64,000 nucleotides of DNA, taken from contig NZ_JAVRIC010000011.1 of NCBI RefSeq assembly GCF_031846245.1, positions 1 to 64,000 on the forward strand, given 5' to 3'. Source of the DNA: Banduia mediterranea. GTDB taxonomy: Bacteria; Pseudomonadota; Gammaproteobacteria; Nevskiales; Nevskiaceae. This document shows positions 3,209-22,958 of the stretch, piece after piece (the first letter of the stretch is position 1; every line of letters starts with the position of its first letter). The translations under genes and the position numbers were made by a program. The notes beneath the pieces were generated by a model, which was not told the origin of the DNA, ran no database searches, and saw only the letters and a program-made list of their open reading frames with translations.

Positions 3209-4013
3209 AATAAAGGGGAGCGGCCAGTTGTTCGGCGCGAAAGTTTCCAGCGTCGCGAGTGACGCGATAGGTGTCGGGGGACAGCATCTCGAGTGTTCCC
3301 TCAGCGCAGCGCTGCTCGAAATAGTCGAGCGTAGCTTCGACCTTCGAAAAATTGACCTTATGTTTGTGAGGCGCCAGATTGAATCGCCACCAGCGCAGCG
3401 CCAGCATGCGTTCGACGACCGGTTCCGGGAATCGCAGACGTACGACGCGCGCCGGCGCACCGACGGCAATGGCATATGGAGGAATATCGTGGGTCACAAC
3501 GCTTCCGGCGCCAATGACAGCACCATCACCGATGCGGATCCCCCGCTTGACGAAAGAACCCGCGCCGACGTAAGCCTCGTGCCCAATATGGGTCCACAAT
3601 GAAAGTGTTTCGGCGAACGAGTAGTCTTCGCTATCATCGGGAGCCAGGTCTCGAAAATCGGGCAGTTGGTACATCCGCGGCTGGTAGTGTTCCCGCGTGA
3701 ATGAAAACGGATGCGTACTGAACCAGTCAGTGGGATGGTCGGGCGGCCCGAGCACAACGCCTTCGCCGATCTGTCCGTAGCGACCTATCCAGCAGCGATA
3801 GATGCTGGTGGTGACCTGGCCATTGATCAGCGTAAACGCCCCCAGGTACGAGTCTCGAATGATCCTGGGATCATAGACCCAGGCGGGGCGCTCGTAAGTA
3901 ATCGAACCCGAAATCGTTCCCCCCGAGACAACGAACAGACCGAGATCAAGCAAGCCTTTGGCTGAAACTTCCTGTATCACGACCGCTCCAATATTTTTGC
4001 CCGAGAACCGCAT
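3207..4013 (-). CDS. Hexapeptide-repeat (left-handed beta-helix) acyltransferase
   Basis: A 268-aa protein with imperfect hexapeptide repeats across most of its length: SGGTISGSITYE, YRCWIGRYGQIGEGVVLG, THIGHEAYVGAGSFVKRG, then IGDGAVIGAGSVVTHDIPPYAIAVGAPARVVR. The last is the standard coil ending of CatB/xenobiotic and capsule O-acetyltransferases. The PPDHPTDWFSTHPF segment carries the histidine typical of that branch. It probably transfers an acetyl or other acyl group from acyl-CoA to a sugar or small hydroxyl acceptor; the acceptor is unknown. The gene is isolated, with an AT-rich upstream stretch (4020-4110) unlike its GC-rich surroundings, which could hold its promoter or hint at transfer. 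Confidence 0.85.
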   Translation of the reverse strand: MRFSGKNIGAVVIQEVSAKGLLDLGLFVVSGGTISGSITYERPAWVYDPRIIRDSYLGAFTLINGQVTTSIYRCWIGRYGQIGEGVVLGPPDHPTDWFSTHPFSFTREHYQPRMYQLPDFRDLAPDDSEDYSFAETLSLWTHIGHEAYVGAGSFVKRGIRIGDGAVIGAGSVVTHDIPPYAIAVGAPARVVRLRFPEPVVERMLALRWWRFNLAPHKHKVNFSKVEATLDYFEQRCAEGTLEMLSPDTYRVTRDAGNFRAEQLAAPLY

Positions 4014-5045: not shown

Positions 5046-5192
5046 CTAGCAATCGCGCCTGAATCGGATTCGAACTGGGTGCAATGCAATGCTGCGTCAT
5101 TCCACATTCGCTCATTCGAGGGGATGAGAATTCATGCGACATTGACTACCCTGACGCGGCGCGACCCAGGGACCAGCAATCAGGAGTCCGCC

Positions 5193-5723
5193 ATGCACCA
5201 CCGCATCGCCCTGCTCTCGGTGGTGGTCGCAATCTGCGGCTGCACCGGCGATCACAGCAATCAGGCATCATCCGCCCCATCGACCTCCGGGCTCGCAACG
5301 CCGCCAAAGATCTGCTCCGAGAACTATCTCAGCGTCCGCGAAACGGCAAGCAACGCCGGGGCCGGCCAGCAAGTCATCGAAGCCTCGGTCTTCAATGACA
5401 GTCCGAGAACCTGCGTTCTGCACGGATATCCGGGCCTGGCTCCACTGGACGCTGGCGGCGTCCGGGCTTCGGCCATCGAGGTTCGCCAGGTTGTCGGTGA
5501 CTCCGAGCTTCAACAGCCTCATGCGGTCGAATTGAAGCCTGGCGCATCGGCGCACTTCGAAATCAGCTTCAGCGTGATCGAAGGCGAATCGGGCGGATGT
5601 CCCGAAATCGAATCGGTGGACGTGATGGCCCCCGGCAGCAACAAGGTGATCGGCAACATCCGCCGGCCGATTCGCGCCTGTGGCGCGCACATCGACGTGG
5701 CGCCGCTCTCGAGTACGGATTAA
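5193..5723 (+). CDS. Putative lipoprotein with DUF4232-like domain
   Basis: A 176-aa protein with a lipoprotein signal peptide: positively charged start, hydrophobic ALLSVVVA and lipobox ending in a Cys at about residue 17 (AICGC). After a Ser/Ala-rich linker the domain from about 40 to 170 contains paired cysteines (CSENYL, RTCVLHGYPG, GGCPEIES, RACGAH). It includes the VFNDSPRTCVLHGYPGL pattern typical of DUF4232, an immunoglobulin-like domain of unknown function common on cell envelopes. The start is set by CAGGAG before the ATG and by the signal peptide. Its TAA stop overlaps the stop codon of the convergent hydrolase gene. Confidence 0.75.
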   Translation: MHHRIALLSVVVAICGCTGDHSNQASSAPSTSGLATPPKICSENYLSVRETASNAGAGQQVIEASVFNDSPRTCVLHGYPGLAPLDAGGVRASAIEVRQVVGDSELQQPHAVELKPGASAHFEISFSVIEGESGGCPEIESVDVMAPGSNKVIGNIRRPIRACGAHIDVAPLSSTD

Positions 5724-6583
5724 GCGGCAGGCAGTTCCACGCCGAGAAAGTTCGCGGTCCATCCGGCGATCAACGCGGCGTGGCTGGCGGGGAAGAAATG
5801 CCCGGCATCCGGCACCACGCGAAACTGCGTGTCCGGCAGTGTGGCGGCCAGGGCACGGCCGGACGGCAGGCAGCGCGAGCGTTCGCCATACAGCAACAGT
5901 GTGGGCGCTGCGATCCGTGCAATCTCATCGGCGCTGGCGCCCATCTCCAGAAACTCGCGCGGCGCCTCGGTCTCCTCAAGCAGTTTCAGATACTGCCGCG
6001 CACCTCGCATGCCGCCGCGTCCTTCGCCGAACGGCGTGAACGCATCACGCGCCTGCGGCGCCCATTGCTCGGCGCGCAGGCGCGCGGTCACCTCCAGATA
6101 ACGCAAGCCGACCTGAGGCTCTCGATCCCAGTCGAGTCCGGCACGCTCGGCAATCTCGATCTCCATGGCCGACAGATGCGGGGAATCCGCGAGGCGCTGT
6201 TCGGGCTGGAGCGTGTTGATCCTGCTGTCCATCAGCACCAGCCGGCGCAGCAGCTGCGGATACTGCACTGCGAACTCCAGTGCGATGCCACCGCCATAGC
6301 TGTGGCCCACGACATCGGCCGACTCGATGCCGGCCTGTTCGAGGAGCGCCGCAAGATCCCCGGCCTGGTCCGCGGCCGAGTAGCCCTGCGGGCTCAGACT
6401 GCTGTAGCCGTGACCGCGCAGGTCGTACAGGGTGACGCGGAACGCGTGCTTGAGCGCCTGCGCCAGCGAGGCGTACCAGAACGCCCGATTGGTGGCGAGT
6501 CCGTGCACCAGCACCAGGTCCGGCCCTTCGCCCACCTGCTGATATTCGAGGCGGCAAGCATCGGCTAGCTCAAGGCTTGCCAT
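5720..6583 (-). CDS. Alpha/beta hydrolase, last gene of the lipid-synthase operon
   Basis: A 287-aa alpha/beta-hydrolase. The oxyanion-hole segment is LVHGLATNRAFW (about 24-35), the nucleophile elbow is GHSYGGG (Ser about 95), and the later acid/His part is TLLLYGERSRC and DAGHFFPASH near the C-terminus. All three catalytic elements are therefore present. It follows the stand-alone ACP by 13 bp on the same strand, so co-translation with the giant synthases is likely. In that context it could act as a thioesterase releasing the finished acyl chain or as a type-II editing enzyme; that role is inferred from position only. It has no signal peptide, so it is probably cytoplasmic. Confidence 0.8.
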   Translation of the reverse strand: MASLELADACRLEYQQVGEGPDLVLVHGLATNRAFWYASLAQALKHAFRVTLYDLRGHGYSSLSPQGYSAADQAGDLAALLEQAGIESADVVGHSYGGGIALEFAVQYPQLLRRLVLMDSRINTLQPEQRLADSPHLSAMEIEIAERAGLDWDREPQVGLRYLEVTARLRAEQWAPQARDAFTPFGEGRGGMRGARQYLKLLEETEAPREFLEMGASADEIARIAAPTLLLYGERSRCLPSGRALAATLPDTQFRVVPDAGHFFPASHAALIAGWTANFLGVELPAA

Positions 6584-6596
6584 CAGCGCGGCTGGC

Positions 6597-6896
6597 TCAC
6601 AGCTGCTGCGCGAGGAAGTCCGAAATCTGGCCGATCGACAGATCGTCGACGTAGCGGCCGTCCTTCATCAGCAGCTTCTCGAACGGCAGCTTGCGCTTGC
6701 CGAAGTCCTCTTCGATCGCGACCACGAGCTGGATGATGTCGATCGATTCGAACGACAGGTCAGCCAGCAGCTTGGTGTCGCTGTTCATCACACCTTCGAA
6801 TTCACTGTCCCAGTCGGCGGTGAAGTCTTCCAGGGTGGCGATCAATTGGGCGGTGATGGCCTCGGGAGCCATCGAGGGCGTCGCGAGATCGTTCAT
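6597..6896 (-). CDS. Stand-alone acyl carrier protein
   Basis: A 99-aa acidic protein with the four-helix ACP pattern. The phosphopantetheine site is LSFESIDIIQLVVAIEE, with the attachment Ser at about residue 50. Its Asp-Ser is replaced by Glu-Ser, unlike the GIDS motif of the three ACPs in the giant synthase. This suggests a distinct partner set, for example loading a starter or carrying the product to a later enzyme. The ATG at 6896 is preferred over 6941 because GAGAGGAATCAGGAC lies just before it. It sits 55 bp after the phosphohydrolase and 13 bp before the hydrolase. Confidence 0.9.
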   Translation of the reverse strand: MNDLATPSMAPEAITAQLIATLEDFTADWDSEFEGVMNSDTKLLADLSFESIDIIQLVVAIEEDFGKRKLPFEKLLMKDGRYVDDLSIGQISDFLAQQL

Positions 6897-6951
6897 GTCC
6901 TGATTCCTCTCAATAGATTTCCGGGTGTAGGTATTCCGCAAGGAATCGCCC

Positions 6952-8550
6952 TCACTCCATGTAGCCGAGCATCTGCAACTGTTCCATCAGTTGCTGCTTT
7001 TCCTTTTCGTCCATTTCCTCGCCGGCCTGGCGTTCGCCCGGCGCTTTTGTCTTGGGACCGTGCTGGACCGGGTTCTGTGCCAGCCACTGTTCGCTGAAGA
7101 AGGCCGCGGGGACTTCACCCTCGAAATCCTTCGGCACTTTCAGGCCGACGCTGTGCAACAGCGTGGGCGCAACGTCAACGATCTGACGCCGTTCGATCAT
7201 GCCGGATGCGGCGACGCCAGGGCCATAGGCCATGAAGATGCCGTCCGGATGATGGGTGCCGGCCGCGACTTCGCGCTGGATCACGACGGGCTGGAAATTG
7301 CGGATCGAGACGAAGCCGTGATCGCGCAGCACCAATGTCAGGTCCGGCGCGCGCTCCATGTGCTTGCCGGGGAACCAGTCCTCGCGCTTGAGCACGTCGA
7401 TGACCACCGGCTCGCCCTTTTCATTGCTCAGGGAGTAGAGGTCGTCGATCAGCTTTTCGCGAAAACTTTCGTACTGTTCCGGCGGAACGCCGGAGTCGCC
7501 GGGCCGGGCCGCCACACGAATGTTGATGCCGTTCGAGGACGGCGTGCGGCAATAGGCGGTGGTGCCGGCCCAGTCGAGGTTGGCGAAGTCGCTGGCCTCG
7601 CGGCGCAGTGCCTGCTCGCTGCCGTCGCTCTCGGCCCATTTCACATAGCCCTTGTCCGCCAGGAAGGCGTTGATGCGCAGCACTTCGGTGGATGCGGTGA
7701 AGCCGTGGTCGGAGGCGAAGAATACCTGCGCGTCCGGGCCAGCCAGCTCCACCAGGCGCTTGATGTAGCCGTCCAGGTTGCGGAAATATTCGAGGCAGAC
7801 ATCGCGCATGCGCTTTTCCCAGGGCTTAGGATCGGCCGGCACCAGTTCGGGATCGAGGTAGGCCCAGGCCTGATGCTGGATCTTGTCGGTGCCGTCGAAC
7901 ATCACCGCCATCAGGTCGGGATCGTCATTCCGCAGAATATATTCGGCCACGCGAAACCATTGTTCCTCGCGCGGCAGGTGGTAGCGCACCCAGCTTTCGG
8001 TGTCCTCCTCCGAAAGCTTTTCCATCGCCTGCTTTTCGTTGTCGAAATCCCAGGCCAATTCCTTGGGATCGAAGCCGGGAATGTCCTGCTTCATGCGGTC
8101 GAACAGCTCACGCGGATAGGTGTTGCGGCGCAGGTGCTTGGCCGGGATGAAGCCCGGTACCACGCAGCCGTTGACGTTCTCGGGCGCCGGCGCGGTCAGC
8201 GGGAAATTCAGCGCTGCGACCTTCTTGCCCTGACGCGAGGCGATCTGCCAGATGAATTCGCAGTCGATGTCGCGCGAGTCGTACAGCGTCCAGTAGATCT
8301 CGCCGCCCTTGTCCTCGGCACGGATGAAATCGAACACGCCGTGGTGCCCCGGACCCCGTCCGGTCTGAATCGAGGCCCAGGCCGGCGGTGTCAGCGGATT
8401 CGGCGTGGACGCCAGCTTGGCGCGCGTGCCGGCCTCCATGACGCTCTTCATGAACGGCATGGTGATGCCTTCATCCGGAAGTTCGCGCGTCATTTCGTTG
8501 AGCACGGTGTAGGTGCAGCCGTCGAGGCCAATGAATAAGGTCTTGCTCAT
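6952..8550 (-). CDS. Alkaline-phosphatase-superfamily phosphohydrolase/phosphodiesterase (COG3379-like)
   Basis: A 532-aa protein of the type I phosphodiesterase/nucleotide pyrophosphatase group. Metal ligands and nucleophile appear in order: FIGLDGCTY at the N-terminus, the nucleophile loop LTPPAWASIQTG (about 52-63), VMFDGTDKIQHQAW (about 220-233), FASDHGF (about 279-285) and GTHHPDGIF (about 438-446). No signal peptide or membrane span is visible, so it should work in the cytoplasm. It lies 47 bp after the KS-AT-DH-PPTase gene. In this operon it might hydrolyse or transfer a phosphorylated head group on the synthase product; that is inference. The C-terminal 40 residues are charged and probably flexible. 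Confidence 0.8.
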   Translation of the reverse strand: MSKTLFIGLDGCTYTVLNEMTRELPDEGITMPFMKSVMEAGTRAKLASTPNPLTPPAWASIQTGRGPGHHGVFDFIRAEDKGGEIYWTLYDSRDIDCEFIWQIASRQGKKVAALNFPLTAPAPENVNGCVVPGFIPAKHLRRNTYPRELFDRMKQDIPGFDPKELAWDFDNEKQAMEKLSEEDTESWVRYHLPREEQWFRVAEYILRNDDPDLMAVMFDGTDKIQHQAWAYLDPELVPADPKPWEKRMRDVCLEYFRNLDGYIKRLVELAGPDAQVFFASDHGFTASTEVLRINAFLADKGYVKWAESDGSEQALRREASDFANLDWAGTTAYCRTPSSNGINIRVAARPGDSGVPPEQYESFREKLIDDLYSLSNEKGEPVVIDVLKREDWFPGKHMERAPDLTLVLRDHGFVSIRNFQPVVIQREVAAGTHHPDGIFMAYGPGVAASGMIERRQIVDVAPTLLHSVGLKVPKDFEGEVPAAFFSEQWLAQNPVQHGPKTKAPGERQAGEEMDEKEKQQLMEQLQMLGYME

Positions 8551-8597
8551 GGTCGCGTCCCTGTCGGTGGGTTCGTCGGTTATCCGGTTGAAAGTTC

Positions 8598-11500
8598 TCA
8601 GCGCATCGAAACGCTGCGTGGAGTGTGCTGCGTCGGCGGCGCGACAACCGCGATCACCGATTCCTCGTCCAGAAAATGCAGGCTCACCAAAAATTCCCGC
8701 GAGGCATGCAGCACTCGCGCCGAACCTGAGCCGATTGCCAGCTGAAGTTCAGTGACCACCCACTCCAAGGGACGCCCGTCCAGTCCCAGCCCGGCCGCTT
8801 TGGCGGCGGCCTCCTTGGCAGACCACAAAGCCACAGTGGCACGCAAGCGCATGGCCGCGTCCAGCGGTTCCACCAGGGCAGCCTCGCGCGCGTGCATGCC
8901 ACCGCGAATCAAGGCATCGACATCCACATCGTGCAGTCGTTGCAGATCGATTCCGATCTCGTGACCCGCGTCCGCAGCGACCGCCACGGCACCGCCGCCG
9001 GAATGACTCAGCGAAACCACGGGCGGCGTGCCGCTGATCGCCGCACAGCGCACATAGGGACGCCCGTTGTCGGCATTGAGTATGTCCACGTCCGCCGGCG
9101 ATAGGTTCAAGCCGCGTGCCGCCGCCCAGTGACGCACTGCATCCTTGGCAGCGACGCGACCCATCAGCCAGTCGGCACGCCGGCCACCGCCGCGCGGCAT
9201 CGCATTGAACAGCTTGCGTTCGCTGCTGGACAGCATCATGTGCGCCAGCACGCGCATCCAGATTTCGTGCCCGACGCCGAGGAAACCTTCCGGGAACGCA
9301 GGGTTGTGAACGGCATAGACGCCCGCGCCAAGCACCAGCGGGACACTCAAGCATTCGCGCTGCGGCTGCAAACGGTAGTTGAAATACCGCTGCGGCACAT
9401 CGAACTTCCGGTCCTGCCAGCCTTCGAGCCGCATCAGCACCGTTCCGTTTTCATGAATCAGATCGAACTCGGCATGCAGCTGCGTATCGCCGACGGGATG
9501 AATCCGGCCACGCCCGATCAGCCGGGTGCCCGGTGCAGGCGGCGGCCCGTAGCAACCGAAACGCTCGCAGCGAAACGGGAAGCAGTTGTAGTCCCAGCCG
9601 AAACGCTCGATCAACCAGTAGCCTGCCATCTGCCCGACGGCGTCGAGCAGCGCTGCATCGGTCTGCATCCTCGGCGAGCTCGTGAACGAAAAGAAGTTGT
9701 AGGTATCGTGCGCCGCGAGATCGCACTCCACAGCCGTGGCCGACCAGCGTCGCACGTGTTTCACGCAGCGCAGACGCGGGCCGTGAAACATACCCTGACT
9801 GTAAAGCGTGCTGTCGTCGTGACGGGCCACGATCTGCGACGGCTCGTCCGGCCAGGCCAGAGGCTGCGGCGGCGCTTCGTAGTCCTGGCCCAGCAACACT
9901 TCGGTCTCGAATACCACCAGTCCATCGGGAGGCATGCCGCTACCGAGCATGAACAGCCTGACGCCGACCGTGGAGGCGCCGGGTGCGCGGGTGGCGACGA
10001 TCCGCAGATCGAGGTGGTCCTCGTCCAGAGTCAGCCATCGGTGCCCGCGCACCTCATGGTGACCGCGTACCACGAAGCCGTCCCCAACCAGGCGTCGCGC
10101 GGCTTCGGACGCAATCTCCATGCTGAAGGTGAACGGCATCACCTGCAACGCGCGCAGATCGGGCTCCAGCACCGAGGGCGCGGAACCGATCGCGTGATCC
10201 CGCAGGTAGAGGTCGGTATCGGCATCGTAGCGGCGGCGCGATTCAAGCCGGCCAGCCTCGTGTGCGACGATCCGACCCAGCATCGGGTACGCCGGATCGT
10301 AGCCTGGTGTCACCGCCTCCGCTTTCGCGACCATGGCGGGCACCTGAACCGCCGGCGTCGCCAAGGGCAGCGCCGGCGGCGAGCCCTGCCCCAACTGCGA
10401 CATGACCCGCATCTGGCTGGCGAGAAAGTCGTTCATCAGCGAGAAATGGGCGCGCAGCGCAGCGCCGCGCGGATCGGTGACATCGGTCGCGGGTGGCGCC
10501 GCCAGCGGCGGTGCGGCGGCAGCCGGCACATTTCCAGCGACCGGGTTCGAGGCTTGCGGCGTCGAAGCCTGCGGCGGCGGCCCGCGGAAAGCATCCGGAA
10601 CCCGCAGCTCCGGCATGTTGAGGTTGAGAATCGCCGGTTTGCGGCGTGGAATGGCCGGCGCGACCCAGTCGATGTCGGCAATCTGCCGATGCGCGAACAG
10701 CCCCGGCATGCGCAGCGGCACACCGCAGGAAAACAGCTGCGCAAGCATGTGGTTCAGCTGTTGCACACCGGACCGGCGGCGGCTGTTGCTGGCCACCGCC
10801 ACCAGTTCCTCGCGTCCGCGCAAGGCATCCGACACGAACGAAGTCAGATTGCCGCTGGGACCGATTTCGACGAACACGCGCACGCCATCCGCATAGAGTC
10901 GCTCCACGGTTTCGGTGAAGCGAACCTTGGCTTCCCACTGCTTCGAAGCGAGCGCGCGGATGCCCGGCGCATCCTCGGGAAACGGTCCTGCGCTGCACGC
11001 GCTGTACAGCGGCACGCGTCCGGCGCCGAACTCGATGTTCTCGTAATAGTGGCGGTAGGCATCGGCCACCGGCCGGAACAGCTCGGTGTGATAGGCGCGG
11101 CCAAACGGCAGCTCCTGACAGATGGCGCCCTCGGCCGACAGCTTTGCGCGCAATTCTCCGACCGCCGCCGAATCTCCGAACAGCACCAGTTGATTGGGGC
11201 AATTGTCCATTGCCGGAACGATGTGGTTCGGTGGATCGTCGAGCAGCGCCTGACGCTGTTCGGGGCGCAGCGCACCAATCGTCAACAGACTGCCGCCAAG
11301 GATGCGGCCTTCCCCGTCGAGCCGCTTGTAGATGTCGTTGAGGTCTCGAATCGTCTGCGCGATCTCGCTGCGTTTGCTGAATCGGCGTACGCCCGATGCG
11401 GTGAGCGCGGTGTTCTCGCCGGTGCTGTGTCCGAGCATCAGGTCCGGCTTGAGGTCCACCGCATCGACAACGGCAAGCAGCGCCATGCTGGCGGCAAACA

Positions 11501-13442
11501 CCGACTCGGCCGCCACATCCATTTCGTAGAGCCGGGCTTCCAGCGATTTCGCGGCAGCCTCTCCCAGCGCCGTCGGTGCCGGGAACAACACCGGAGCCCG
11601 CGCCGGCGCACCGCGCGCGGCCGCGGTATCGTCCAGGAAATCGAACCAGTCACGCGCCTGCGGGAACTGCACGCAGACGTCCGACAGCATGTTCTGGTAC
11701 TGCGAGCCTTCGCCCGGGAACAGAAAGGCAATACGCCCCGGTGGTTCACCGTGGCCGTAATAGATTCCGTTGCGCGTCTTGAACGGCGTATCGCCGCGCG
11801 CCAGTTTTTCCGCTGCCTGGGCCAGCTTTTTCAGCAGATCATCGCGATCGGCGGCGACCAGTGCCAAACGATGACTGCCCGAGGCATCCTGCGCGCACAA
11901 GCGCGCCAGGGATGGCAGGCCGGGTTCATCGAAGGCCGAGGCACGCGCCACCAGTTGCTCGACGCGCCTGCGCAGCTCTTCCAGCGACTCGGCGGCCAGC
12001 ACCAGCAGCTCGCCTTCGCTGGGAGCATGCAGCACCTGGGCCTGCACCTTGCGGGCAGGCCGGTACTCCTCCAGCACGACATGCGCGTTGATCCCGCCAA
12101 AGCCGAAGGCGTTGACGCCGGCGCGGCGTGGCTCGCGGCCGCCATGTATCCACGGGCGCGTTTCGGTGTTGACGTAGAACGGCGTGCGTTCCAACCCCAG
12201 TTCGGGCTCCACCTCGTCGCACAGCGTCGGCGGCAACACCTTGTGGTGCAAGGCCAGCGCCATCTTGATCATGCTCGCCGAACCGGATGCCGGTATGCAG
12301 TGACTGATCATCGACTTGATCGAACCGATCGCGATCGTCGGCAACTCTCCGTGTCGCGGTCCGAACACCCGCGACAGCGCCTGAATCTCGGTGCGATCCC
12401 CCAGCGGCATGCCGGTGCCGTGCGCCTCGATCAGTGAAACCGTATCGGGCGAGACCTGAGCGTTTTCGTAAGCGCGGCGCAGCGCCAGTTCCTCGCCTTC
12501 CAGACGCGGCGCCAACACGCCCTTGGCACGGCCGTCACTGGCGACGCCGATGCCACGGATCAGCGCATAGACGCGGTCGCCGTCGGCTTCCGCATCGGAC
12601 AAACGCTTGAGCGCCAGAAAGCCCGCCCCTTCGCCCAGCAAGGTACCCGAGGAACCCTTGCTGAACGGGCGTACCCGCTCACGCGAGAGTGCATTGATGT
12701 TGCAGAAGCTCATGAAGATCTGTGCACCGGTCTGCACCTGTGAGCCGCCGCACAGCATCACGTCGCAGCGACCGGTCTGCAATTCGCGCACCGCCGCCTC
12801 GACCGCCAGCAACGACGACGCACAGGCCGCGTCGACCACGTAGTTCGGCCCCATCAGGTCGAGCCGGTTGGCAATCAGTCCGGTGGCGATGTTGGACACG
12901 AAGCCCGGCGTGGCCTCGGCGTTGAACGCCGGCAGCTGCGCACGCAAGGCTTCCCGCAGATCCTTGAGTTCGACCGCCGAGAAATCGGGACGCACCGCCG
13001 CGATCGCGGCCAGGGTCTGGTCCAGCACCAGGCCGTGCTGCGCCAGTGTCATCGTGCCGCGATAGGCGTAGCCACCGCGACCGACGATGATGCCGGCGCG
13101 GCTGCGGTCGAAATCCTTGTCGAGCAGGCCGGCGTCGGAGAGGGCATCGCGCGCCAGCCTCAAGCCCAGATAGTGATCCGGATCGGCACCATCGATCGAG
13201 CGCGGCATGATGCCGAACTCCGCCGCGTCGAAGCTCGCGAGTTCTTTAAGGAACCCACCGCGCGTGGTGTACAGACGCTCGGTGGATTCGGGATCATTGT
13301 CACGCGACAGCGAAGCCCAGGCGGCATCGGCCTCGCTGGTGGCGTCGACCTTGTTGAGCACGTTGTTCCACAACTGGGTCGCGTCGGCGGCACCGGCGAA
13401 ACAGCCGGCGACACCGACGATGGCAATCGGTTCGGCACTCAC
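8598..13442 (-). CDS. Giant PUFA/PKS-like synthase subunit: KS-AT-DH-phosphopantetheinyl transferase
   Basis: A 1614-aa multidomain enzyme. KS spans about 1-460, with Cys207 in DAACASS, His341 in HGTGM and His381 after GSIKSM, so it is a complete condensing domain. AT spans about 570-900, with Ser673 in GHSTGE and His785 in YHTEL. A Pro/Ala linker with a helix (about 985-1018) follows. A double-hotdog dehydratase covers about 1050-1350, with His1083 in RDHAIG and D1267xxxQ1271. A C-terminal Sfp-type 4'-phosphopantetheinyl transferase covers about 1395-1600, with GIDLQ and WSAKEAAAKA. It has no ACP, so it must work with the ACPs of the upstream subunit or the free ACP. The GTG start at 13442 forms a GTGA overlap with the upstream stop, implying translational coupling. 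The usual Glu of GIDxE is Gln here. Confidence 0.9.
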   Translation of the reverse strand: MSAEPIAIVGVAGCFAGAADATQLWNNVLNKVDATSEADAAWASLSRDNDPESTERLYTTRGGFLKELASFDAAEFGIMPRSIDGADPDHYLGLRLARDALSDAGLLDKDFDRSRAGIIVGRGGYAYRGTMTLAQHGLVLDQTLAAIAAVRPDFSAVELKDLREALRAQLPAFNAEATPGFVSNIATGLIANRLDLMGPNYVVDAACASSLLAVEAAVRELQTGRCDVMLCGGSQVQTGAQIFMSFCNINALSRERVRPFSKGSSGTLLGEGAGFLALKRLSDAEADGDRVYALIRGIGVASDGRAKGVLAPRLEGEELALRRAYENAQVSPDTVSLIEAHGTGMPLGDRTEIQALSRVFGPRHGELPTIAIGSIKSMISHCIPASGSASMIKMALALHHKVLPPTLCDEVEPELGLERTPFYVNTETRPWIHGGREPRRAGVNAFGFGGINAHVVLEEYRPARKVQAQVLHAPSEGELLVLAAESLEELRRRVEQLVARASAFDEPGLPSLARLCAQDASGSHRLALVAADRDDLLKKLAQAAEKLARGDTPFKTRNGIYYGHGEPPGRIAFLFPGEGSQYQNMLSDVCVQFPQARDWFDFLDDTAAARGAPARAPVLFPAPTALGEAAAKSLEARLYEMDVAAESVFAASMALLAVVDAVDLKPDLMLGHSTGENTALTASGVRRFSKRSEIAQTIRDLNDIYKRLDGEGRILGGSLLTIGALRPEQRQALLDDPPNHIVPAMDNCPNQLVLFGDSAAVGELRAKLSAEGAICQELPFGRAYHTELFRPVADAYRHYYENIEFGAGRVPLYSACSAGPFPEDAPGIRALASKQWEAKVRFTETVERLYADGVRVFVEIGPSGNLTSFVSDALRGREELVAVASNSRRRSGVQQLNHMLAQLFSCGVPLRMPGLFAHRQIADIDWVAPAIPRRKPAILNLNMPELRVPDAFRGPPPQASTPQASNPVAGNVPAAAAPPLAAPPATDVTDPRGAALRAHFSLMNDFLASQMRVMSQLGQGSPPALPLATPAVQVPAMVAKAEAVTPGYDPAYPMLGRIVAHEAGRLESRRRYDADTDLYLRDHAIGSAPSVLEPDLRALQVMPFTFSMEIASEAARRLVGDGFVVRGHHEVRGHRWLTLDEDHLDLRIVATRAPGASTVGVRLFMLGSGMPPDGLVVFETEVLLGQDYEAPPQPLAWPDEPSQIVARHDDSTLYSQGMFHGPRLRCVKHVRRWSATAVECDLAAHDTYNFFSFTSSPRMQTDAALLDAVGQMAGYWLIERFGWDYNCFPFRCERFGCYGPPPAPGTRLIGRGRIHPVGDTQLHAEFDLIHENGTVLMRLEGWQDRKFDVPQRYFNYRLQPQRECLSVPLVLGAGVYAVHNPAFPEGFLGVGHEIWMRVLAHMMLSSSERKLFNAMPRGGGRRADWLMGRVAAKDAVRHWAAARGLNLSPADVDILNADNGRPYVRCAAISGTPPVVSLSHSGGGAVAVAADAGHEIGIDLQRLHDVDVDALIRGGMHAREAALVEPLDAAMRLRATVALWSAKEAAAKAAGLGLDGRPLEWVVTELQLAIGSGSARVLHASREFLVSLHFLDEESVIAVVAPPTQHTPRSVSMR

Positions 13443-16400: not shown

Positions 16401-19400
16401 TCGGCTTCCAGATCGGAATCCAGACCCAGCATGTCCTCGGGATAACCGGTGCGTTCTGCGACGATGCTCAGCAGCGTTGCCTTGTAGTCGATACGGGTGG
16501 AAGCAAGAGGCGTGAGGGGTAAGGCGGCAGGCGAAACAGCCGCAACCGGTGCCATGGGCGCCAGCGCTTCGAGCGCGGCGATGATCGCGTTGAGCGTCCT
16601 GGCCCGTGTAAACGTCTCCATGCCTGCCTGCATCTGCGCGCCGGCGTCGGGCGGCAGTTGTTTCTGCAGAGCACCGGCGATTTCGACACGCTTGATCGAG
16701 TCGATGCCAAGGTCGGCTTCCAGATCGGAATCCAGACCCAGCATGTCCTCGGGATAACCGGTGCGTTCTGCGACGATCGCCAGGAGCACAGCGGCGTAAT
16801 CGACGCTGTCCCGGGTCCCGGAAGCCGTCGCCAGGGGCGCCATGGGCTCGGGCGCCGAAACGGCTGCCGCAACCGACGCGGCAACCGGCGCCGCAGGCTC
16901 CACGCCTGACACCTCACCGGCGGCAGGCGCAGCCGCCGCCAGATACTGCCCAATCACACGTTCCTGCAAGGCCAGGAACTGGCGCATGGTTTCCTGGTAG
17001 GCCGCCATCGCATCGCCGCTGACCGGCGCGCCTGTGGCCGCAGCCGCCAGCGGTGCCGGACTGGCAGCCGGCGCGACCGGTGCAGAGGGCGGTGCTTGCC
17101 TGGCCCGGCGCTGGGCACGAGCCGCGTCACGCGTCTCCAGCGTCAGAGCCGGACGCTTGCCGGTACGGATCTCGGGATCGTTGAGCGCACGGGCGCAACC
17201 GCCGGACAGCATCCAGGTGGTCTTGCTCGGAATCGGTGCCGCCATCGCTTGGCTGAGTTTCGCTACGGCGTATGTAGTCAGGCCTCGCGGTTCATACAGC
17301 GCAAACGCGTCCAGCGTGGCACCGGCAACGACCAGTTCGGCGATACCGCCGAGCAGACCGCGCAGACCACCGCCCTGCCCGTCCAGCGATACGGCGCGCG
17401 CATCCTTGCCGGCCAAGGTGGCCATGGCCATGTTGCTGCAGATGCTCTTGGGCCCGAGTTCGAGGAACAAACGTATGCCGGCTTCGTACATCGCTTCGAT
17501 CTCTGCGACGAACTCCACCGAACTGAGCAGATGCCGATCCAGCAGAGCGCGGGCCTTGCTCGCATCGTCCGGATAGCGGGCGCCGAGCGTGTTCGAATAG
17601 ACCGGGAATTCGGGCACTGCGAAATGGGCGCCGGCAATCGCCGCCGACAGCGGCGCCTGGGCGGCGGCCACCAGTTCGGTATGGAATGCGCCGGACACCG
17701 GCAGACGAGTCGCGCGAATGTCCGCGTCCGTCAGCGCCTTCACCGCCGCGTCGATCTGACCGGAAGGACCGGAGATCACGCTCTGTTGTGGCGAGTTGTG
17801 GTTGGCGACACGCACGCCGTCGAAGGCGGCAATGTGCGTTTCGACGACCCCGCGATCGGCCTGTACCGCGGCCATGCCGCCAGCGACGCCATCAGCGGAC
17901 GCTTGCGCCATGGCGCCGCCACGAATCGCCGACAACCTCAGGAAGGTTTTCGGATCGATCACTCCGGCAGCCATCAGCGCGGCATATTCGCCATAGCTGT
18001 GGCCGGCCGCCGCGCTGGCCTGCAGGCCCAGGCGGCGCGCGAACCATAGGTAGCCGAGTTCGATCGCACCCAGCGCCGGCTGCGCGTGCTGTGTCTGCGT
18101 CAGGCGTTTCTGCTGAGCCGTTTCGACCTCGGGCGTGAACGCGGATTCCGGCCATATCAGTCGCGACAGACGCTGCGGCAGAACCTCCGCGAGTTCACCG
18201 TCGGCGAGTTCCACCGCTGCGCGCAGCTCCTCGAGGTACACAGCCGGCTCGCAGCCCATGTTGACGTACTGCGCACCCTGCCCTGGGAACAGCAGGCCGA
18301 TCTTTGGCGCGCTGTCCGGTACCGCTTTCGAGAACTTGATGTGCGGCGGCAGCGGTTTGCCGGATTCGACATGCGCGCTCAGAGCCGAAATATCGGCACT
18401 CAGCGCCTCATAGTCACGCGCGGCAAAAGCGGCCACGCAGCGGCCTGACTGGCGCAACTGCGCGTCACGTACCAGGCTTGCGGCGAAACTCGAGAATTCG
18501 AGATGCCTGTCCGAGGACAGCAGGCCTTGCAGCTGCTTCAATTGCTGCGCGATACCCGTTTCGTCGGTGGCGCGCAACACGATCAGTTCGTAGGGCCAGC
18601 TTTCCGCACCCGGCACATCCGCTTGCGCGTAGCCGTCTCGATACTCTTCGAGCACCGCGTGAAAATTGGTGCCGCCGAAGCCGAAGGCGGACACGCCGCC
18701 GCGCCGCGGATGCCGCGGATCGGCAACCCAGGGCCGTGGCGCCTTGAGCAGATACACCGGCGATTCTGGATCGGCGATCGTGTCGATCGGCCTGTCGACG
18801 CCGTAGTGCGCCGGCAGCGTGCGGTGATGCAGCGACATCGCCACCTTGATCAGGCCGGCGACACCCGCACTGGCCTTGGTATGACCGAGCAGGGTCTTGA
18901 CCGAGCCGATCGCCACGCTCTTGGTCGCCGCGCCTTCGGCCTGCAGGGATTCGATGATGGTCCGCGCCTCGGCGCGATCACCGACCGGCGTACCGGTCCC
19001 GTGCGCTTCGGCCATGCCGATGGTCGCCGGCGAGAAACCGGCCTTCGCGTATGCACGCTTGATCGCCCGCATCTGTCCTTCCGGACGCGGCGCCGTCATG
19101 CCCAGGGCCTTGCCGTCCGAGGAACCGGCAGCCGCCTTGATCACGGCGTAAATGCGATCCCCGTCGCGCTCCGCATCCTCCAGCCGCTTCATCACGATCA
19201 CGGCGAGACCCTCGCTGATTGCGATGCCGTTGGCGGCCTGGTCGAAGGTGCGCGGCTGGCCGTCCGGCGACAGCGCCTGCGTCTTCGAGAAACACAGGAA
19301 GCCGAACGCCGACTGCACGGTGTCGATGCCACCGGCGACGACGACGTTGCTGCGCCCGGTCTCGAGTTCGTTGACGCCCATGGAGATCGCCGCCAGCGAC

Positions 19401-22012
19401 GAGGCGCAAGCCGCATCCACGGTGAAATTGACGCCGCCGAAATCCAGACGGTTGGCGACGCGCCCGGCCACGACGTTGAGCAGGGAGCCGGCGAAGGATT
19501 CCTCGGTCCATTCCGGCAGGCGGTCCCAGACCTCCTCGGACAGGTCCTCGACGAATCGTGGCAGTTCTGCACGCAGTGCGTACTGGGTGCCGAGGTCGCC
19601 GAGACCGCCGCTGGTGCCGAGGATGATCGAGGTGTTCTCGCGGTCGAATCCGCCGTCCGCGAAACCGGCATCGGCCAGTGCGCGCCGCGACACTTCCAGC
19701 GTCAGCAGCTGCATCGGATCGATCGACTTCATCGACCTCGGCGGGATGCCGTAGATCATCGGATCGAACGGCAGCTCGTCGAGAAAACCGCCCCACTTCG
19801 AATAGACCTTGTCGCGCGCGGTACGGTCGGCATCGAAATACAACTGCCAGTCCCAACGCTCCTTGGGCACTTCGCGCAACACGCAGTTCTGACGCAGGAT
19901 GTTGTTCCAGTAGGCATCCGCGGCCAGCGCCTGCGGTAGCAGCGTACCGATGCCGACGATCGCGACGTTCGACGGCGCCGCCGCCGCCGCGCCCTCACGA
20001 CGGATCGTCCAGTTGGCCATCAAGGCCGCCGCACCTTCACTGACTTCCAGATGCAGGTTCTCGACCGGCAGGGCTGCGTCGCGCAGCGTCGCCACCTGGC
20101 CGATCATGTACATGCCGTCGCTCAACTGCTGCTCGGCCGCCACATCCACGATCGTGCCGCTGGCGTCGCGGTTGACGCCCTTGGAGGCGATGCGCAGGCG
20201 CCCCATGTTGAGATCTTCGAGCTCGTCGCGGATCTCGTCGGCGGACTTGCCTTCGCGCAGCAGCTGCCGGCGCTGCGCGTAGAACTCATGAGCGAATTGC
20301 GAATCGACGCAACGCGTGGAGTGCCCTGGCCCGGTCTCCAGGCTCATGGTGCGCCGGCAGGCGATCGCCTGAGCCTGGAAACCTTCGACCACGGCGCCGG
20401 AGCTGACGATCTCCGGCGTGAACAGATAGGCCGTGCCCATCAGCATGCCGATCTTGAAACCGCGCGCCGCCAGTGGCGCCGTCATCGCGGCGATCATCGC
20501 CCCGGAACGCGCGTCGTGTATGCCGCCCGCGAACAGCAGATGGAACTCGCCTTCGCTGCCGGGCGCGGCCTGGGCCAGCAGCATTTCGATCATCTGCTCC
20601 CACAGCGGGAAACTGGCGATCGGCCCGATATGGCCGCCGCATTCGCGGCCCTCGAACACGAAGCGGCGCGCGCCCTGCTCGATGTACATCTTCAGCAGCG
20701 CCGGCGCCGGGGCGTGGATATAGGTGGGAATGCCGCGGCTTTCGAACTGCGCGGCCTGATCCGGGCGGCCACCGGCGATCAGCGCATAGCTGGGCTTGCA
20801 GGCCCAGATCGCCTCGCACTGCTCGTCGCGCAGGGTCTGCGGCACGAAGCCGAGCATGCCCACACCCCAGGGCTGATCGCCGATCTGCCGGCGCGTGGAT
20901 TCCAGCATCTCGCGCACCTGCGGCCCGCGCATCAGCGCCAGCGCCAGGAACGGCAAGGCGCCACCGCGTGCCACATCGACCGCAAATTCCGGGCTGTCCG
21001 ACACGCGCGTCATCGGACCCTGCGCGATCGGGAAACGCGTGCCGTGCGAGGCAGCCAGCGGCGCACCGGGCGACAGGTGTTCGAGCCGGTTGGCCGTTTC
21101 GATGAATTGCTCGCTGGCGGAACGCATCGCCTGCACCAACCTGCCGACGCGTTTGTAGCGCTCGCGATAGATCGCCGCCACACCGATGCCCTGACCCAGC
21201 GGCAACAACTGAGCGGCCCCCCAGCCCAGCCGGGACCGGACTTCGCCGTGCCAGGCCTCGATGGTCAGCTCGCCACTTTCGGCGTCGCGCGAATGGGCTT
21301 CGATCGCCTTCAGCGATTCGCTGCCGGGCCGAGCGTAGACCCGGCACGGCGCATTCGCCAACTCACCGAACAGCCGCGTCTCGGAGCCGTTGAGCCGCGC
21401 CAGCTCCAGCTTGACGCGATCCGAGAGCGCGGATTCGTCGAGCAGCAGCAGTTGGTCGTCGAGCACCACGCCGGCGGCGCCGGCGATGCGCAGGCCGGCC
21501 GCGGAATGCAGGCCGATACCGCCACGCACATGAACCGGCCTGGCCACCTTGCCGAGCAGCTTCTGGGCGAGAATGTAGGCGGTGTCGTCACCGACCCAGC
21601 CACCGGCCTCGTGGCCCTTGGCAACATAGGCGTCGGGCTCGAAACCCAGCGCCGCGATGTCATCCGGCGAACGGATTTCGGCAAACACTGAATGTGCCGA
21701 ATGCGTGCCGGCAGGCAGCGATTCGAAGCGATCGCGGTCCGCATCCACGAGCATCACTACCAGCTCGCGTTCGCCGGCTCTCTCGATCAGGCGCCGGCCC
21801 ATGCCGAGTGACTGTGGCGTCAGTCGCAGACCGATACGGCCACGCGTGCCCGCAAGCAGGCGGTCGAAGTTGTCCTCGACACGCTGCGCGTCGCCGGCGT
21901 GCTCAAGGTCCAGAACCCCGATGGCGCCAGCCCGCGACGCCGCCACAGCGATGCCGGGATGCGAAAAGTCCGCCGGCACCAGACAGAAAATATCGAAACT
22001 GTTTACGTCCAT
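13439..22012 (-). CDS. Giant PUFA/PKS-like synthase subunit: NPD-NPD-KS-AT-ACPx3-KR-DH
   Basis: A 2857-aa enzyme. Two tandem FMN-type 2-nitropropane-dioxygenase-like barrels (about 1-260 with GHEAGG; about 320-660 with GRECGGH) resemble the stand-alone PfaD enoyl reductase. KS spans 680-1125 (Cys869, His1004, His1044). AT spans 1235-1560 (Ser1339 in GHSYGE; GAFH at 1441-1444, a malonyl-type signature). Three near-identical ACPs carry Ser1772, Ser1876 and Ser1980 in GIDSIKR. KR spans about 2070-2550 with a structural half, then TGGARG and Tyr2467. A double-hotdog DH covers 2575-2855 (H2603xxxGxxxxP; D2769xxxQ). This is a nearly complete PUFA-synthase cycle on one chain. Relative to PfaA, an enoyl reductase is fused in front and no chain-length factor is seen. 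It starts 127 bp after the sulfatase-like gene; the product is unknown. Confidence 0.9.
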   Translation of the reverse strand: MDVNSFDIFCLVPADFSHPGIAVAASRAGAIGVLDLEHAGDAQRVEDNFDRLLAGTRGRIGLRLTPQSLGMGRRLIERAGERELVVMLVDADRDRFESLPAGTHSAHSVFAEIRSPDDIAALGFEPDAYVAKGHEAGGWVGDDTAYILAQKLLGKVARPVHVRGGIGLHSAAGLRIAGAAGVVLDDQLLLLDESALSDRVKLELARLNGSETRLFGELANAPCRVYARPGSESLKAIEAHSRDAESGELTIEAWHGEVRSRLGWGAAQLLPLGQGIGVAAIYRERYKRVGRLVQAMRSASEQFIETANRLEHLSPGAPLAASHGTRFPIAQGPMTRVSDSPEFAVDVARGGALPFLALALMRGPQVREMLESTRRQIGDQPWGVGMLGFVPQTLRDEQCEAIWACKPSYALIAGGRPDQAAQFESRGIPTYIHAPAPALLKMYIEQGARRFVFEGRECGGHIGPIASFPLWEQMIEMLLAQAAPGSEGEFHLLFAGGIHDARSGAMIAAMTAPLAARGFKIGMLMGTAYLFTPEIVSSGAVVEGFQAQAIACRRTMSLETGPGHSTRCVDSQFAHEFYAQRRQLLREGKSADEIRDELEDLNMGRLRIASKGVNRDASGTIVDVAAEQQLSDGMYMIGQVATLRDAALPVENLHLEVSEGAAALMANWTIRREGAAAAAPSNVAIVGIGTLLPQALAADAYWNNILRQNCVLREVPKERWDWQLYFDADRTARDKVYSKWGGFLDELPFDPMIYGIPPRSMKSIDPMQLLTLEVSRRALADAGFADGGFDRENTSIILGTSGGLGDLGTQYALRAELPRFVEDLSEEVWDRLPEWTEESFAGSLLNVVAGRVANRLDFGGVNFTVDAACASSLAAISMGVNELETGRSNVVVAGGIDTVQSAFGFLCFSKTQALSPDGQPRTFDQAANGIAISEGLAVIVMKRLEDAERDGDRIYAVIKAAAGSSDGKALGMTAPRPEGQMRAIKRAYAKAGFSPATIGMAEAHGTGTPVGDRAEARTIIESLQAEGAATKSVAIGSVKTLLGHTKASAGVAGLIKVAMSLHHRTLPAHYGVDRPIDTIADPESPVYLLKAPRPWVADPRHPRRGGVSAFGFGGTNFHAVLEEYRDGYAQADVPGAESWPYELIVLRATDETGIAQQLKQLQGLLSSDRHLEFSSFAASLVRDAQLRQSGRCVAAFAARDYEALSADISALSAHVESGKPLPPHIKFSKAVPDSAPKIGLLFPGQGAQYVNMGCEPAVYLEELRAAVELADGELAEVLPQRLSRLIWPESAFTPEVETAQQKRLTQTQHAQPALGAIELGYLWFARRLGLQASAAAGHSYGEYAALMAAGVIDPKTFLRLSAIRGGAMAQASADGVAGGMAAVQADRGVVETHIAAFDGVRVANHNSPQQSVISGPSGQIDAAVKALTDADIRATRLPVSGAFHTELVAAAQAPLSAAIAGAHFAVPEFPVYSNTLGARYPDDASKARALLDRHLLSSVEFVAEIEAMYEAGIRLFLELGPKSICSNMAMATLAGKDARAVSLDGQGGGLRGLLGGIAELVVAGATLDAFALYEPRGLTTYAVAKLSQAMAAPIPSKTTWMLSGGCARALNDPEIRTGKRPALTLETRDAARAQRRARQAPPSAPVAPAASPAPLAAAATGAPVSGDAMAAYQETMRQFLALQERVIGQYLAAAAPAAGEVSGVEPAAPVAASVAAAVSAPEPMAPLATASGTRDSVDYAAVLLAIVAERTGYPEDMLGLDSDLEADLGIDSIKRVEIAGALQKQLPPDAGAQMQAGMETFTRARTLNAIIAALEALAPMAPVAAVSPAALPLTPLASTRIDYKATLLSIVAERTGYPEDMLGLDSDLEADLGIDSIKRVEIAGALQKQLPPDAGAQMQAGMETFTRARTLNAIIAALEALAPMAPIAAVAPAALPLTPLASTRIDYKATLLSIVAERTGYPEDMLGLDSDLEADLGIDSIKRVEIAGALQKQLPADAGAQMQAGMETFTRARTLNAIIAALEALAPTAVVRPPASGLRPPASPPPTEAIAEVPRYVIRPQSVPFIAERGTLSGLVLVCGGDDATRMPLMESLAAQGASVVAVDAIEADSIAASLAVARERHGPVRGVVHLYGMEPLASDSFEDWRNAGQRSVMSLFHWVQALGAELSGIRLVAATRLGGTLGRTAVGNGSVLGGGVSGLIKCLRHEYPDGRFRLVDFDGQTPLTIADYLADELLANDALPEVGYTGDARYATTTVDDALRENAFAPRLSPAADWVVLATGGARGITAELLEEIARPGMRIVLVGRSPEPPAEDARYAAAADATALRQRLIEDARASGQALKPVEFERQLSRLLAAREIRGNLLRLAACGAAVDYQACDVRDVQAFGALIDTVYDRYGRIDAVLHGAGVIEDKLLADKSVESFDRVFGTKIDSAWTLKHRLRPDSLKLLVFFSSVAGRYGNQGQSDYACANEVINRLAWQLSREWTEARVIAVNWGPWDAGMASEGVKRQFRERGMAPIPLAGGRRYFINELAYGPKNEVEVVIGQGPWQQIDGIAPRLDAPAADKPPQAMPLIRQSLRMGSGGALVLPHHFTAESDPYLDDHVINGKRVLPAAGAAEWMAQVAVEGWPGWQLAEVRDLRTLAGVVLDGDKGREVSIRARASTHSGSGEQMISVDIVEPGRKAPLYRASVRLVERFDEIPPPVPPAIQGESLDIATVYRDYLFHTGRFQLMTAIDAFSETGVDAVVRSSTPQEWVGVEGQWLLDPGLVDVAAQLAFVWVRKQHSTSALPARFGQLVRYGKAPLPATLKVLFRLRPPPHDLAIAFDAYFIDAAGDLRLAVLDSESTLWAALNRAAGHS
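15930..16810 (-). repeat. Three tandem 312-bp ACP-coding repeats
   Basis: Within the giant synthase gene, three units of 312 bp (104 codons) encode ACP domains with identical GIDSIKRVEIAGALQ helices. The units are nearly identical at the DNA level, including third-codon positions, and even the Ala/Pro linkers between units 1 and 2 match. This points to recent duplication or continuing gene conversion. Tandem ACPs are a hallmark of PUFA synthases. Confidence 0.95.
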
Positions 22013-22139
22013 GTCTTGCCACCCCAGGGCCTGTTCGCCTTTCGCGCGACGCCGAATCCCGTCGCAGTCGCCGAATATCGACGATCACTGCTGCAATCTG
22101 CTGTATCAACCTTTGTGCCCCCCCCACGCTCGGTTCATA

Positions 22140-22958
22140 CTAGCGCTTGACGCCCTCCAGAAACGGTACTTCCAGTACCTTCTCGTGCACGATCGGGCCA
22201 TGCCCGAAATAGCCGCTTTCGCCAAAGCACTCGCCGTGATCGGCGGTGATGACGAAGTGCGTATCCTTCGGCGCCTTGTCGATCAGCGCGGCCAGCACCT
22301 GGTCAACATATTCCACGGTCTTGGTCTGCTGAAGATGCAGCATCCGCATCTGGTCAGCGTCAAAAAACTGACTATCGGTATCGATTCCCAGATGGTCGTC
22401 CATGCGTTTGAACACCCCGTGCACCCCGGAGATGTGCGGCATCGTCTTCGGATCCAGCATGTACGGATAGTGGGTCTCGCCGAGGTTCAGGAAATGGAAG
22501 CTCGGTTCATCCTCGTCGAATTCGATCTGGTTGACGATGCCGACGAAATCGTTGTGATTCGGCATCAGCTTGTATTCGTCGAAATGCCGGTTCAGATGCG
22601 AGAACGGATTGAGTACCGGCAGCGACACGCGCGCCTCGGTGCGGTAGCCATGGCTCTGCAAGACCTTGGGCAAGGACAGCTCGGGGATGAAACTCTTGAA
22701 CGACAGGCCGTCGATGCCGAGCCGGTCGACCCACTTGGAAAAGTCCTTCTTGTAGACCTCGGACGCGAACACGCCCTGCGGACTCTCGTGCGGAATCATT
22801 CCCATCAGATAGGTGTAGTGGGACGGGCTGGTCCAGGAGGCAAACGAATAGCGTCGCGAGCCCTCGCCCAAGGCATCCATGTTCGGGGTCTTCGCAGCCT
22901 GGTAGCTGTCGAAACGACAGCTGTCCATCACGATGAAGACCAGATTTTTCAATGCCAT
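22140..22958 (-). CDS. Sulfatase/phosphoglycerol-transferase-like alkaline phosphatase superfamily enzyme
   Basis: A 272-aa compact enzyme. The N-terminal beta-strand and metal-binding Asp are in VFIVMDSCRFDSY. The candidate nucleophile loop is WTSPSHY, which lines up with the sulfatase CxPSR motif but has Thr/Ser and His in place of Cys and Arg, so formylglycine activation is not expected. Further metal ligands are in ITADHGECFGESG and GHGPIVHEKVLEVP near the C-terminus. It lacks membrane spans and a signal peptide and is shorter than usual sulfatases. As the first gene of the synthase operon it may add or remove a phosphate- or sulfate-containing group on the product; this is inference. An in-frame ATG at 22997 is an alternative start; 22958 is where homology begins. 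Confidence 0.75.
   Translation of the reverse strand: MALKNLVFIVMDSCRFDSYQAAKTPNMDALGEGSRRYSFASWTSPSHYTYLMGMIPHESPQGVFASEVYKKDFSKWVDRLGIDGLSFKSFIPELSLPKVLQSHGYRTEARVSLPVLNPFSHLNRHFDEYKLMPNHNDFVGIVNQIEFDEDEPSFHFLNLGETHYPYMLDPKTMPHISGVHGVFKRMDDHLGIDTDSQFFDADQMRMLHLQQTKTVEYVDQVLAALIDKAPKDTHFVITADHGECFGESGYFGHGPIVHEKVLEVPFLEGVKR

Follow-up and report, generated by a model that had tools for sequence, protein, structure and literature searches.

Twenty types of secondary lipid synthase were listed in 2011, 14 of them without a known product (PMC3098273). The same survey records that Shulse and Allen classed Beijerinckia indica as Type P, gives Type O (Dinoroseobacter, Gloeobacter and Parvularcula) without a known product, and assigns the phosphopantetheinyl transferase (PPTase) motif (F/S)NxSH to omega-3 polyunsaturated fatty acid (PUFA) synthases and hShxH to Types M-T (PMC3098273). 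In Azotobacter, ArsA makes C23-C25 acids for type III polyketide synthases (PKSs) (PMC4824345). Here we describe an operon from the first 64,000 nucleotides of Banduia mediterranea contig NZ_JAVRIC010000011.1, hereafter the window, which encodes a well-supported type of secondary lipid synthase. The kind of synthase is already known; its constant phosphoesterases, a pseudo-enoylreductase and linked export genes are apparently new at the level of titles and abstracts. In the literature covered at that level, with subscription journals mostly out of reach, there was no description of the operon or of a phosphodiesterase gene beside such a synthase. The source genome shares its family with Solimonas and Panacagrimonas, a family we take to be Nevskiaceae.

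Six minus-strand genes occupy positions 5720-22958 in the order SULF-G1-G2-PDE-ACP-ABH; genes, strand and coordinates were checked, and the original prediction that they lie close together held in every one of these respects. We lean towards reading the operon as a two-subunit iterative synthase with a fused enoyl reductase (ER), making an exported, specialised long-chain lipid with a head group that would need two phosphoesterases with a threonine nucleophile. The sequences of G1 and G2 encode functions for activating the carrier, loading malonyl units, condensing, ketoreducing and dehydrating the chain, and a single ER site. The genes are listed here together with a hexapeptide acyltransferase gene that was not part of the original set of six.

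22140..22958, minus strand: SULF, a 272-aa alkaline-phosphatase-superfamily protein (PF00884, E 8e-11)
13439..22012, minus strand: G1 synthase, 2857 aa, with pseudo-ER, ER, ketosynthase (KS), acyltransferase (AT), three acyl carrier protein domains (ACPs), ketoreductase (KR) and dehydratase (DH) (TIGR02813, 1260 bits)
8598..13475 (or 13442), minus strand: G2 synthase, with KS, AT, DH and PPTase (Pfam/NCBIfam)
6952..8550, minus strand: PDE, a type I phosphodiesterase (PF01663, E 5e-43)
6597..6941, minus strand: free ACP, motif LSFESIDII, with an ATG start possible at 6896 (synteny, weak NCBIfam matches)
5720..6583, minus strand: ABH, an alpha/beta hydrolase (PF00561, E 4e-32)
3210..4013, minus strand: hexapeptide acyltransferase, downstream of the operon here, with its orthologue inside the operon in most relatives

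The gaps between genes after G2 were about 10-50 bases, and that between SULF and G1 was 127 bases. Judged from sequence, G2 probably starts at GTG 13442, so that its start and the stop of G1 overlap in GTGA. For SULF the best choice of start was ATG 22958, not the opening of the reading frame at 22997, because homology in most relatives begins near residue 17. A scan for promoters and terminators found 2 and 7 sites against shuffle means of 2.2 and 10.0, no excess. The operon is single-copy in the source genome. At its downstream edge, the ABH stop overlaps by four bases (5720-5723) the stop of an opposite-strand DUF4232 gene (5079-5723).

G1 carries most of the synthase core. It scored 1260 bits against the NCBIfam PfaA subfamily TIGR02813, over a cut-off of 1010.1 that none of 14 control genomes passed, 11 of them having a weaker match. 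Its domains are as follows.

21113..22012, minus strand: barrel 1 (NPDa), pseudo-ER, GHEAGGW, catalytic His replaced by Trp (FabK structures, E 1.4e-5)
20018..21055, minus strand: barrel 2 (NPDb), FabK-like ER, EGRECGGH (FabK structures, E 7.7e-9)
18653..19969, minus strand: KS, Cys motif, both His motifs by eye (PF00109/PF02801)
17411..18292, minus strand: AT, GHSYGE (PF00698, E 1.1e-32)
15983..16789, minus strand: three tandem ACPs, Ser-site motifs at residues 1768, 1872 and 1976 (PF00550, three stretches)
14516..15184, minus strand: KR (PF08659, E 4e-36)
13496..14299, minus strand: DH, HxxxGxxxxP by eye (PF21089 and PF14765)

Both N-terminal barrels were matched by FabK/nitronate-monooxygenase structures, so the fold originally proposed for two NPD-type enoyl reductases stands, but a second active ER does not. 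The catalytic His of barrel 2 was invariant in all 12 aligned rows. Barrel 1 lacked it in 126 of the 127 loci where the stretch could be aligned, a count in which some genomes appear more than once, and the sole exception was Beijerinckia mobilis. Because of this loss, what had been two enoyl reductases is better described as one predicted competent ER (barrel 2) and one predicted pseudo-enoylreductase (barrel 1). In thraustochytrid synthases two ER domains are described as forming a heterodimer (PMC13311796), and barrel 1 may likewise serve barrel 2 as a structural partner. The tandem ACPs of G1 share 80-89% DNA identity, and the number of ACP motifs in its relatives ranges from 1 to 6, some of these loci being cut.

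The second subunit, G2, supplies a further condensing and dehydrating set together with the PPTase.

12066..13433, minus strand: KS, Cys motif present, no chain-length factor (CLF) after it
10806..11726, minus strand: AT, GHSTGE and GRAYHTE (PF00698, E 2.5e-18)
9408..10208, minus strand: DH (PF14765, second half only, E 2.5e-7)
8715..8957, minus strand: PPTase core (PF01648, E 2.6e-11)

Only two KS domains occur in G1 and G2, each with its Cys motif, and no CLF was found in either protein, as had been predicted. The predicted count of two KS, two AT, one KR, two DH and a dedicated PPTase likewise agreed with Pfam and NCBIfam. Of four predicted ACPs, the three in G1 were recovered by Pfam; the free one had no Pfam match and is identified by synteny and weak NCBIfam matches (best E 6.7e-5). 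In the G2 DH, His 1094 and the Asp motif were present in 25 of 25 aligned rows, and the PPTase motif was absent from three of 25, all distant. Read by eye from the translation, this motif is VSLSH, the hShxH form and not (F/S)NxSH. A Pfam search of G1 and G2 gave no FabA-type DH match, PF14765 and PF21089 being the only DH hits.

The two putative phosphoesterases set the operon apart. SULF had been called a sulfatase-like enzyme, which is right for the fold and wrong for the nucleophile. Its motif was T-[SA]-P-S-H in 19 of 19 aligned rows, across which D12, T43, D240, H241 and H253 were invariant. The nucleophile motif of formylglycine sulfatases is C/S-x-P-S-R, and a role as such a sulfatase was ruled out by the Thr in place of Cys/Ser. 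SULF scored 67 bits against the NCBIfam STM4013-like family, under the cut-off of 250. An AlphaFold2 model (pLDDT 69, pTM 0.77) returned sulfatases, EptC and LtaS alike in Foldseek, so no substrate is assigned. In PDE, residues D10, T54, D219, D281, H282 and H433 were kept in all 19 rows, down to 38% identity, and its structural-database matches were NPP and phosphonoacetate hydrolase; a single-sequence model (pLDDT 36) was too poor for use. By superfamily membership, these residues are likely the Thr nucleophile and metal ligands, and SULF also retains the Thr and likely metal ligands. No signal peptide was seen by eye in either protein. The enzymes would fit the phosphate head group that had been suggested; the phosphate coupling itself we infer.

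ABH, likely a release thioesterase or acyltransferase, has Ser in GHSYGG, Asp at +24 and His. The Ser and the His were retained in 25 of 25 aligned rows, as was an acidic residue at +24, either Asp or Glu. The hexapeptide transferase lay in or beside the operon in 33 of 36 family loci.

Conservation was strong within the family. When 57 other genomes of the family were searched for G2, 42 had a match in one piece (about 890 residues or more, at least 50% identity), seven had fragments or weaker matches, and eight had none at E 1e-50. Forty loci were then compared, 36 from the family and four from two other families of the order. PDE and ACP followed G2 in 36 of 36 family loci, SULF lay directly upstream of G1 in 31 of 36, and ABH was present in 30 of 36. 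The five SULF misses were three contig ends, one fetch edge and one divergent locus (L074). The check on gene order proposed with the original prediction came out in its favour, the order with SULF recurring in those 31 loci and G2, PDE and ACP in all 36. The arrangement is more than chance, since loci of this family share the order and other phyla share parts of it. Median identity to the window over 34 family loci was 79% for SULF (24 scored), 72% for PDE, 74% for the G1 KS, 73% for barrel 2 and 44-70% for other synthase domains. Carriers of the operon include Solimonas fluminis, Panacagrimonas perspica and Hydrocarboniphaga daqingensis, and in part Fischerella.

Two side observations concern the same genomes. 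Several family genomes have a second ER-fused synthase type (L075, L076, L077, L080 and L082), neighboured by an EryCIII-like glycosyltransferase, an ABC-2 permease and a conserved protein without a Pfam match, which looks like a glycolipid pathway. One genome (G033, 9% contamination) has two equal-scoring G2 copies (C1:27101-31876 and 230633-235408), which may be an assembly effect.

Linkage of PDE to the synthase extended beyond the family. A barrel 2 scan gave at least 556 relatives, of which the best 80 were taken further; a PDE search then covered 41 named genomes from this set, each carrying such a synthase. A match at E 1e-30 or better was found in 25 of the 41 and at least 40% identity in 23, five of which belong to the window's family. 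Random samples yielded few close PDEs, with 3 in 397 other genomes of the phylum (E 1e-60) and 1 in 193 other cyanobacteria (E 1e-90). Among the 22 genomes outside the family (18 + 3 + 1), all selected for having a close PDE, 17 had it on the same strand and immediately adjoining G2, the PPTase end of G2 or the ACP. These were Fischerella (3), Synechococcus, Cyanaurora (at a contig end, with a weak PPTase piece), Micromonospora (2), Haliea, Pseudomonas sp. PDM16, two genomes of one genus, two beta-proteobacterial metagenome-assembled genomes (MAGs), a Brocadia MAG, Paludisphaera, a Phycisphaerales MAG and a Herpetosiphonaceae MAG, which, going by organism names, we take to represent five phyla. 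In Luteitalea and locus L193, PDE was on the same strand as the synthase and within 7 kb. G1 was about 290 kb from the PDE-ACP-G2 part in Fischerella PCC 9431 and about 245 kb from it in the Phycisphaerales MAG, where the G2 part beside PDE and ACP has no KS. Even with G1 this far off, PDE remains next to ACP and the G2 part; it therefore follows G2 and ACP, not G1. A cyanobacterial locus (L222) has SULF, PDE and ACP within 7 kb and no synthase on its 20-kb stretch.

The export genes, like the acyltransferase at 3210-4013, are additions to the six genes originally described. They form a cassette encoding a protein of about 500 aa and, beside it, a sulfotransferase-fold protein, followed by HlyD-type (fusion) and TolC-type (outer membrane) proteins. 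HlyD and TolC genes were present in nine of nine fetched family genomes, and the cassette was 0.6-9.7 kb from ABH in all eight relatives fetched. In the source genome it lies at 86.1-92.2 kb of the operon's contig, outside the window and 63 kb away from the six genes, and the case for linking it to the operon comes from the relatives; in a congener (G001), cassette and operon are on different contigs. The protein of about 500 aa has no Pfam match. It had one orthologue in each of ten family genomes tested and was found beside distant loci in 17 of 51 clustered loci, some from the same genome. On the source contig it is at 87.0-88.5 kb (L213:3118-4611), and it is conserved beside such synthases in several phyla. 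The sulfotransferase-fold protein adjoined it in nine of ten family genomes (E 1e-10), with a 62-bit match in the tenth.

For the source genome copy of this sulfotransferase, the only solved relatives at E 0.01 were the olefin-synthase (best, E 1e-16) and CurM sulfotransferases. Its 3'-phosphoadenosine 5'-phosphosulfate (PAPS) loop was degenerate in all 11 family genomes aligned, the PRS being lost and MPHCGAARV replacing the PRSGST-like loop. The loop was intact in Fischerella, Lysobacter sedimenti, Pseudomonas and others, and degenerate second copies occurred in Bosea, L112 and L193. Because of the degenerate loop, sulfation or CurM-like decarboxylation is unlikely in the window's family; either is plausible in relatives with an intact loop. 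A sulfated product was favoured when the linked sulfotransferase was found and was lowered by this degeneracy. In an order-level family that includes Abyssibacter (f3; L071:499-1866, and L072), an ACP-sulfotransferase fusion occurs besides the free ACP and matches the olefin-synthase structure at E 1.6e-59. Adenosine 5'-phosphosulfate (APS) kinase-like genes lie near related synthases of Fischerella (L111:8039-8614, confirmed by Pfam), Herpetosiphonaceae (L129) and Bosea (L185), where they would fit PAPS use.

A quick KS tree of 85 domains, midpoint rooted, placed the ER-fused G1 domains, that of Beijerinckia indica among them, in a single 42-row clade (support 99). Seven Pfa-like rows fell outside this clade, among them Persicobacter and S. 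globosus, whose references carry a KS and a second KS-like domain; the S. globosus CLF and C-1027 rows were long branches, and their join was not relied on. Window G1 belonged to a 20-row subclade (support 99) with Pseudomonas, Bosea, Haliea, Fischerella, Synechococcus, Neptuniibacter, Ideonella and Lysobacter sedimenti, no member of which has a known product. Type P KS domains formed their own clade (support 100). The G1 and G2 trees were largely congruent by eye, which suggests that the two genes evolve together. The KS phylogeny suggested with the original prediction thus places G1 apart from the Pfa-like rows, and the description of an unassigned, PUFA-synthase-like secondary lipid operon is borne out by the PfaA cut-off passed, the missing CLF and the KS position.

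Taken together, these data are consistent with a two-subunit iterative type I fatty acid/polyketide synthase of the ER-fused lineage, that of Type P and not of the CLF-bearing PUFA synthases, which would make a long acyl chain. The free ACP and ABH would take this chain off G1/G2, SULF and PDE would act on a phosphoester in the head group by hydrolysis or transfer, the hexapeptide transferase would acylate that head group, and the linked HlyD-TolC system would export the finished lipid. The sequences themselves show the domain content, the catalytic motifs, one ER with a conserved pseudo-ER, the gene order and the linkage of PDE to G2 and ACP across phyla; we infer how long the chain is, in which order the late steps run, what happens at the phosphate and that this product is the one exported. 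A broader reading, which we regard as possible but rather doubtful, is a so far undescribed cross-phylum class of exported specialised lipid, defined by an ER-fused two-KS synthase, an obligate pseudo-ER and a dedicated PF01663 enzyme trimming or transferring a phosphoester on a long chain that is carrier-bound or has just been released, with the degenerate sulfotransferase retained in a new, PAPS-independent role. Several observations weigh against our preferred reading. Eighteen of the 41 named synthase genomes had no PDE at 40% identity, and Neptuniibacter, Ideonella and Lysobacter sedimenti, from the window's own KS subclade, had no PDE match. The Bosea PDE is about 10 kb from the synthase and on the opposite strand, and in L190 and L222 the stretch around PDE has no synthase, with ACP present in both. 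ABH was not seen in six of 36 family loci, each with 1-2 kb of DNA left at the ABH end, and the four order-level loci from two other families hold G1, G2 and ABH with no PDE or SULF match nearby. The distance of the cassette in the source genome counts on the same side.

Other explanations share parts of this evidence. A CurM- or olefin-synthase-like decarboxylative termination, in which free ACP, sulfotransferase and ABH would yield a terminal alkene, or else a sulfated lipid, draws on the linked sulfotransferase-fold protein with its best match to the olefin-synthase structure, then CurM, on the f3 fusion and on the APS kinase genes near three related loci, one Pfam-confirmed. We consider it unlikely, given the degenerate PAPS loop in 11 of 11 family copies where Fischerella and others keep it intact, the 63 kb between sulfotransferase gene and operon in the source genome, and the absence of a CurM thioesterase by name from the 56 structures matching ABH at E 1e-10. 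A FabA-type dehydratase pair is a defining feature of omega-3 PUFA (Pfa) synthases. Its absence from the hits, the missing CLF and the KS position ruled out a canonical PUFA synthase, and an ordinary variant supplying EPA- or DHA-like (eicosapentaenoic or docosahexaenoic) fatty acids to membrane phospholipids is quite improbable. G1 does clear the PfaA cut-off, but its DH hits are of PKS type, its ER is fused and FabK-like, its KS falls outside the Pfa-like clade, and phosphoesterase and export genes adjoin or are linked.

A chain synthase of the phenolic-lipid (ars) kind, whose head group would come from another source, would account for the giant layout shared with Beijerinckia indica and for 51% identity over the ER-KS part. 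It is set against a separate KS clade, the lack of a counterpart of the G2 KS-AT in the B. indica PPTase protein, and the lack of a type III PKS in a search confined to the six genes; we give it little credence. Genome-wide, a type III PKS match (PF00195) over the cut-off was found in 10 of 26 named genomes with related synthases, and Beijerinckia mobilis, which groups with Type P, had none. Least convincing is a PDE acting on the carrier, where cleavage or remodelling of the free ACP's phosphopantetheine phosphodiester would release acyl-phosphopantetheine. PDE belongs to the phosphodiesterase branch of its superfamily and outside the family adjoins ACP and G2 in the order G2-ACP-PDE, but within the family it precedes ACP, mostly with a gene in between, and we know of no precedent in the alkaline-phosphatase superfamily, which counts against this idea. 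The exported lipid from an ER-fused, two-subunit synthase remains the reading we prefer.

A gene set is now defined around one synthase type without a known product, comprising synthase, two phosphoesterases, acyltransferase and exporter. Identifying the product would give PF01663 and STM4013-like proteins a pathway role, and may explain why a barrel without its catalytic His persists in nearly all these synthases. Because the operon occurs in several phyla together with these unstudied helpers, its product is a concrete search target.

Compared with PfaABCDE (Types A, B and D), the operon shares a PfaA-like core of KS, AT, tandem ACPs and KR and a PPTase of its own, and differs in lacking a CLF and a FabA-type DH hit, in an ER fused to G1, and in the P1b motif of its PPTase, which is that of Types M-T. 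The layout with the ER at the front and the PPTase at the end does depart from PfaABCDE as originally noted, but it is not unique, being found also in Beijerinckia indica and in other phyla. The heterocyst glycolipid system (Type F) has a KS-CLF-AT protein, HglC, where G2 is KS-AT without CLF. The CurM/olefin-synthase module resembles related loci in its ACP, alpha/beta hydrolase and CurM-like sulfotransferase; in the window's family these parts are unfused and the sulfotransferase P-loop is degenerate. Type P, and with it the ArsA/ArsD system of Azotobacter, was compared through the B. indica sequence (pBIND02) only. B. indica likewise has a giant with two N-terminal barrels, KS, AT, ACP and KR, a separate DH-PPTase protein and a place in the same ER-fused KS clade. 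It differs in two genes annotated as beta-ketoacyl-ACP synthase III (KAS III), read as type III PKSs, beside the synthase; it also lacks a second KS-AT as well as any PDE or SULF match on its stretch, and falls in a different KS subclade. In Cyanaurora, presumably a Gloeobacter relative, SULF-G1 lies on one contig and ACP-PDE-ABH on another. The window operon and Type O are possibly of the same kind.

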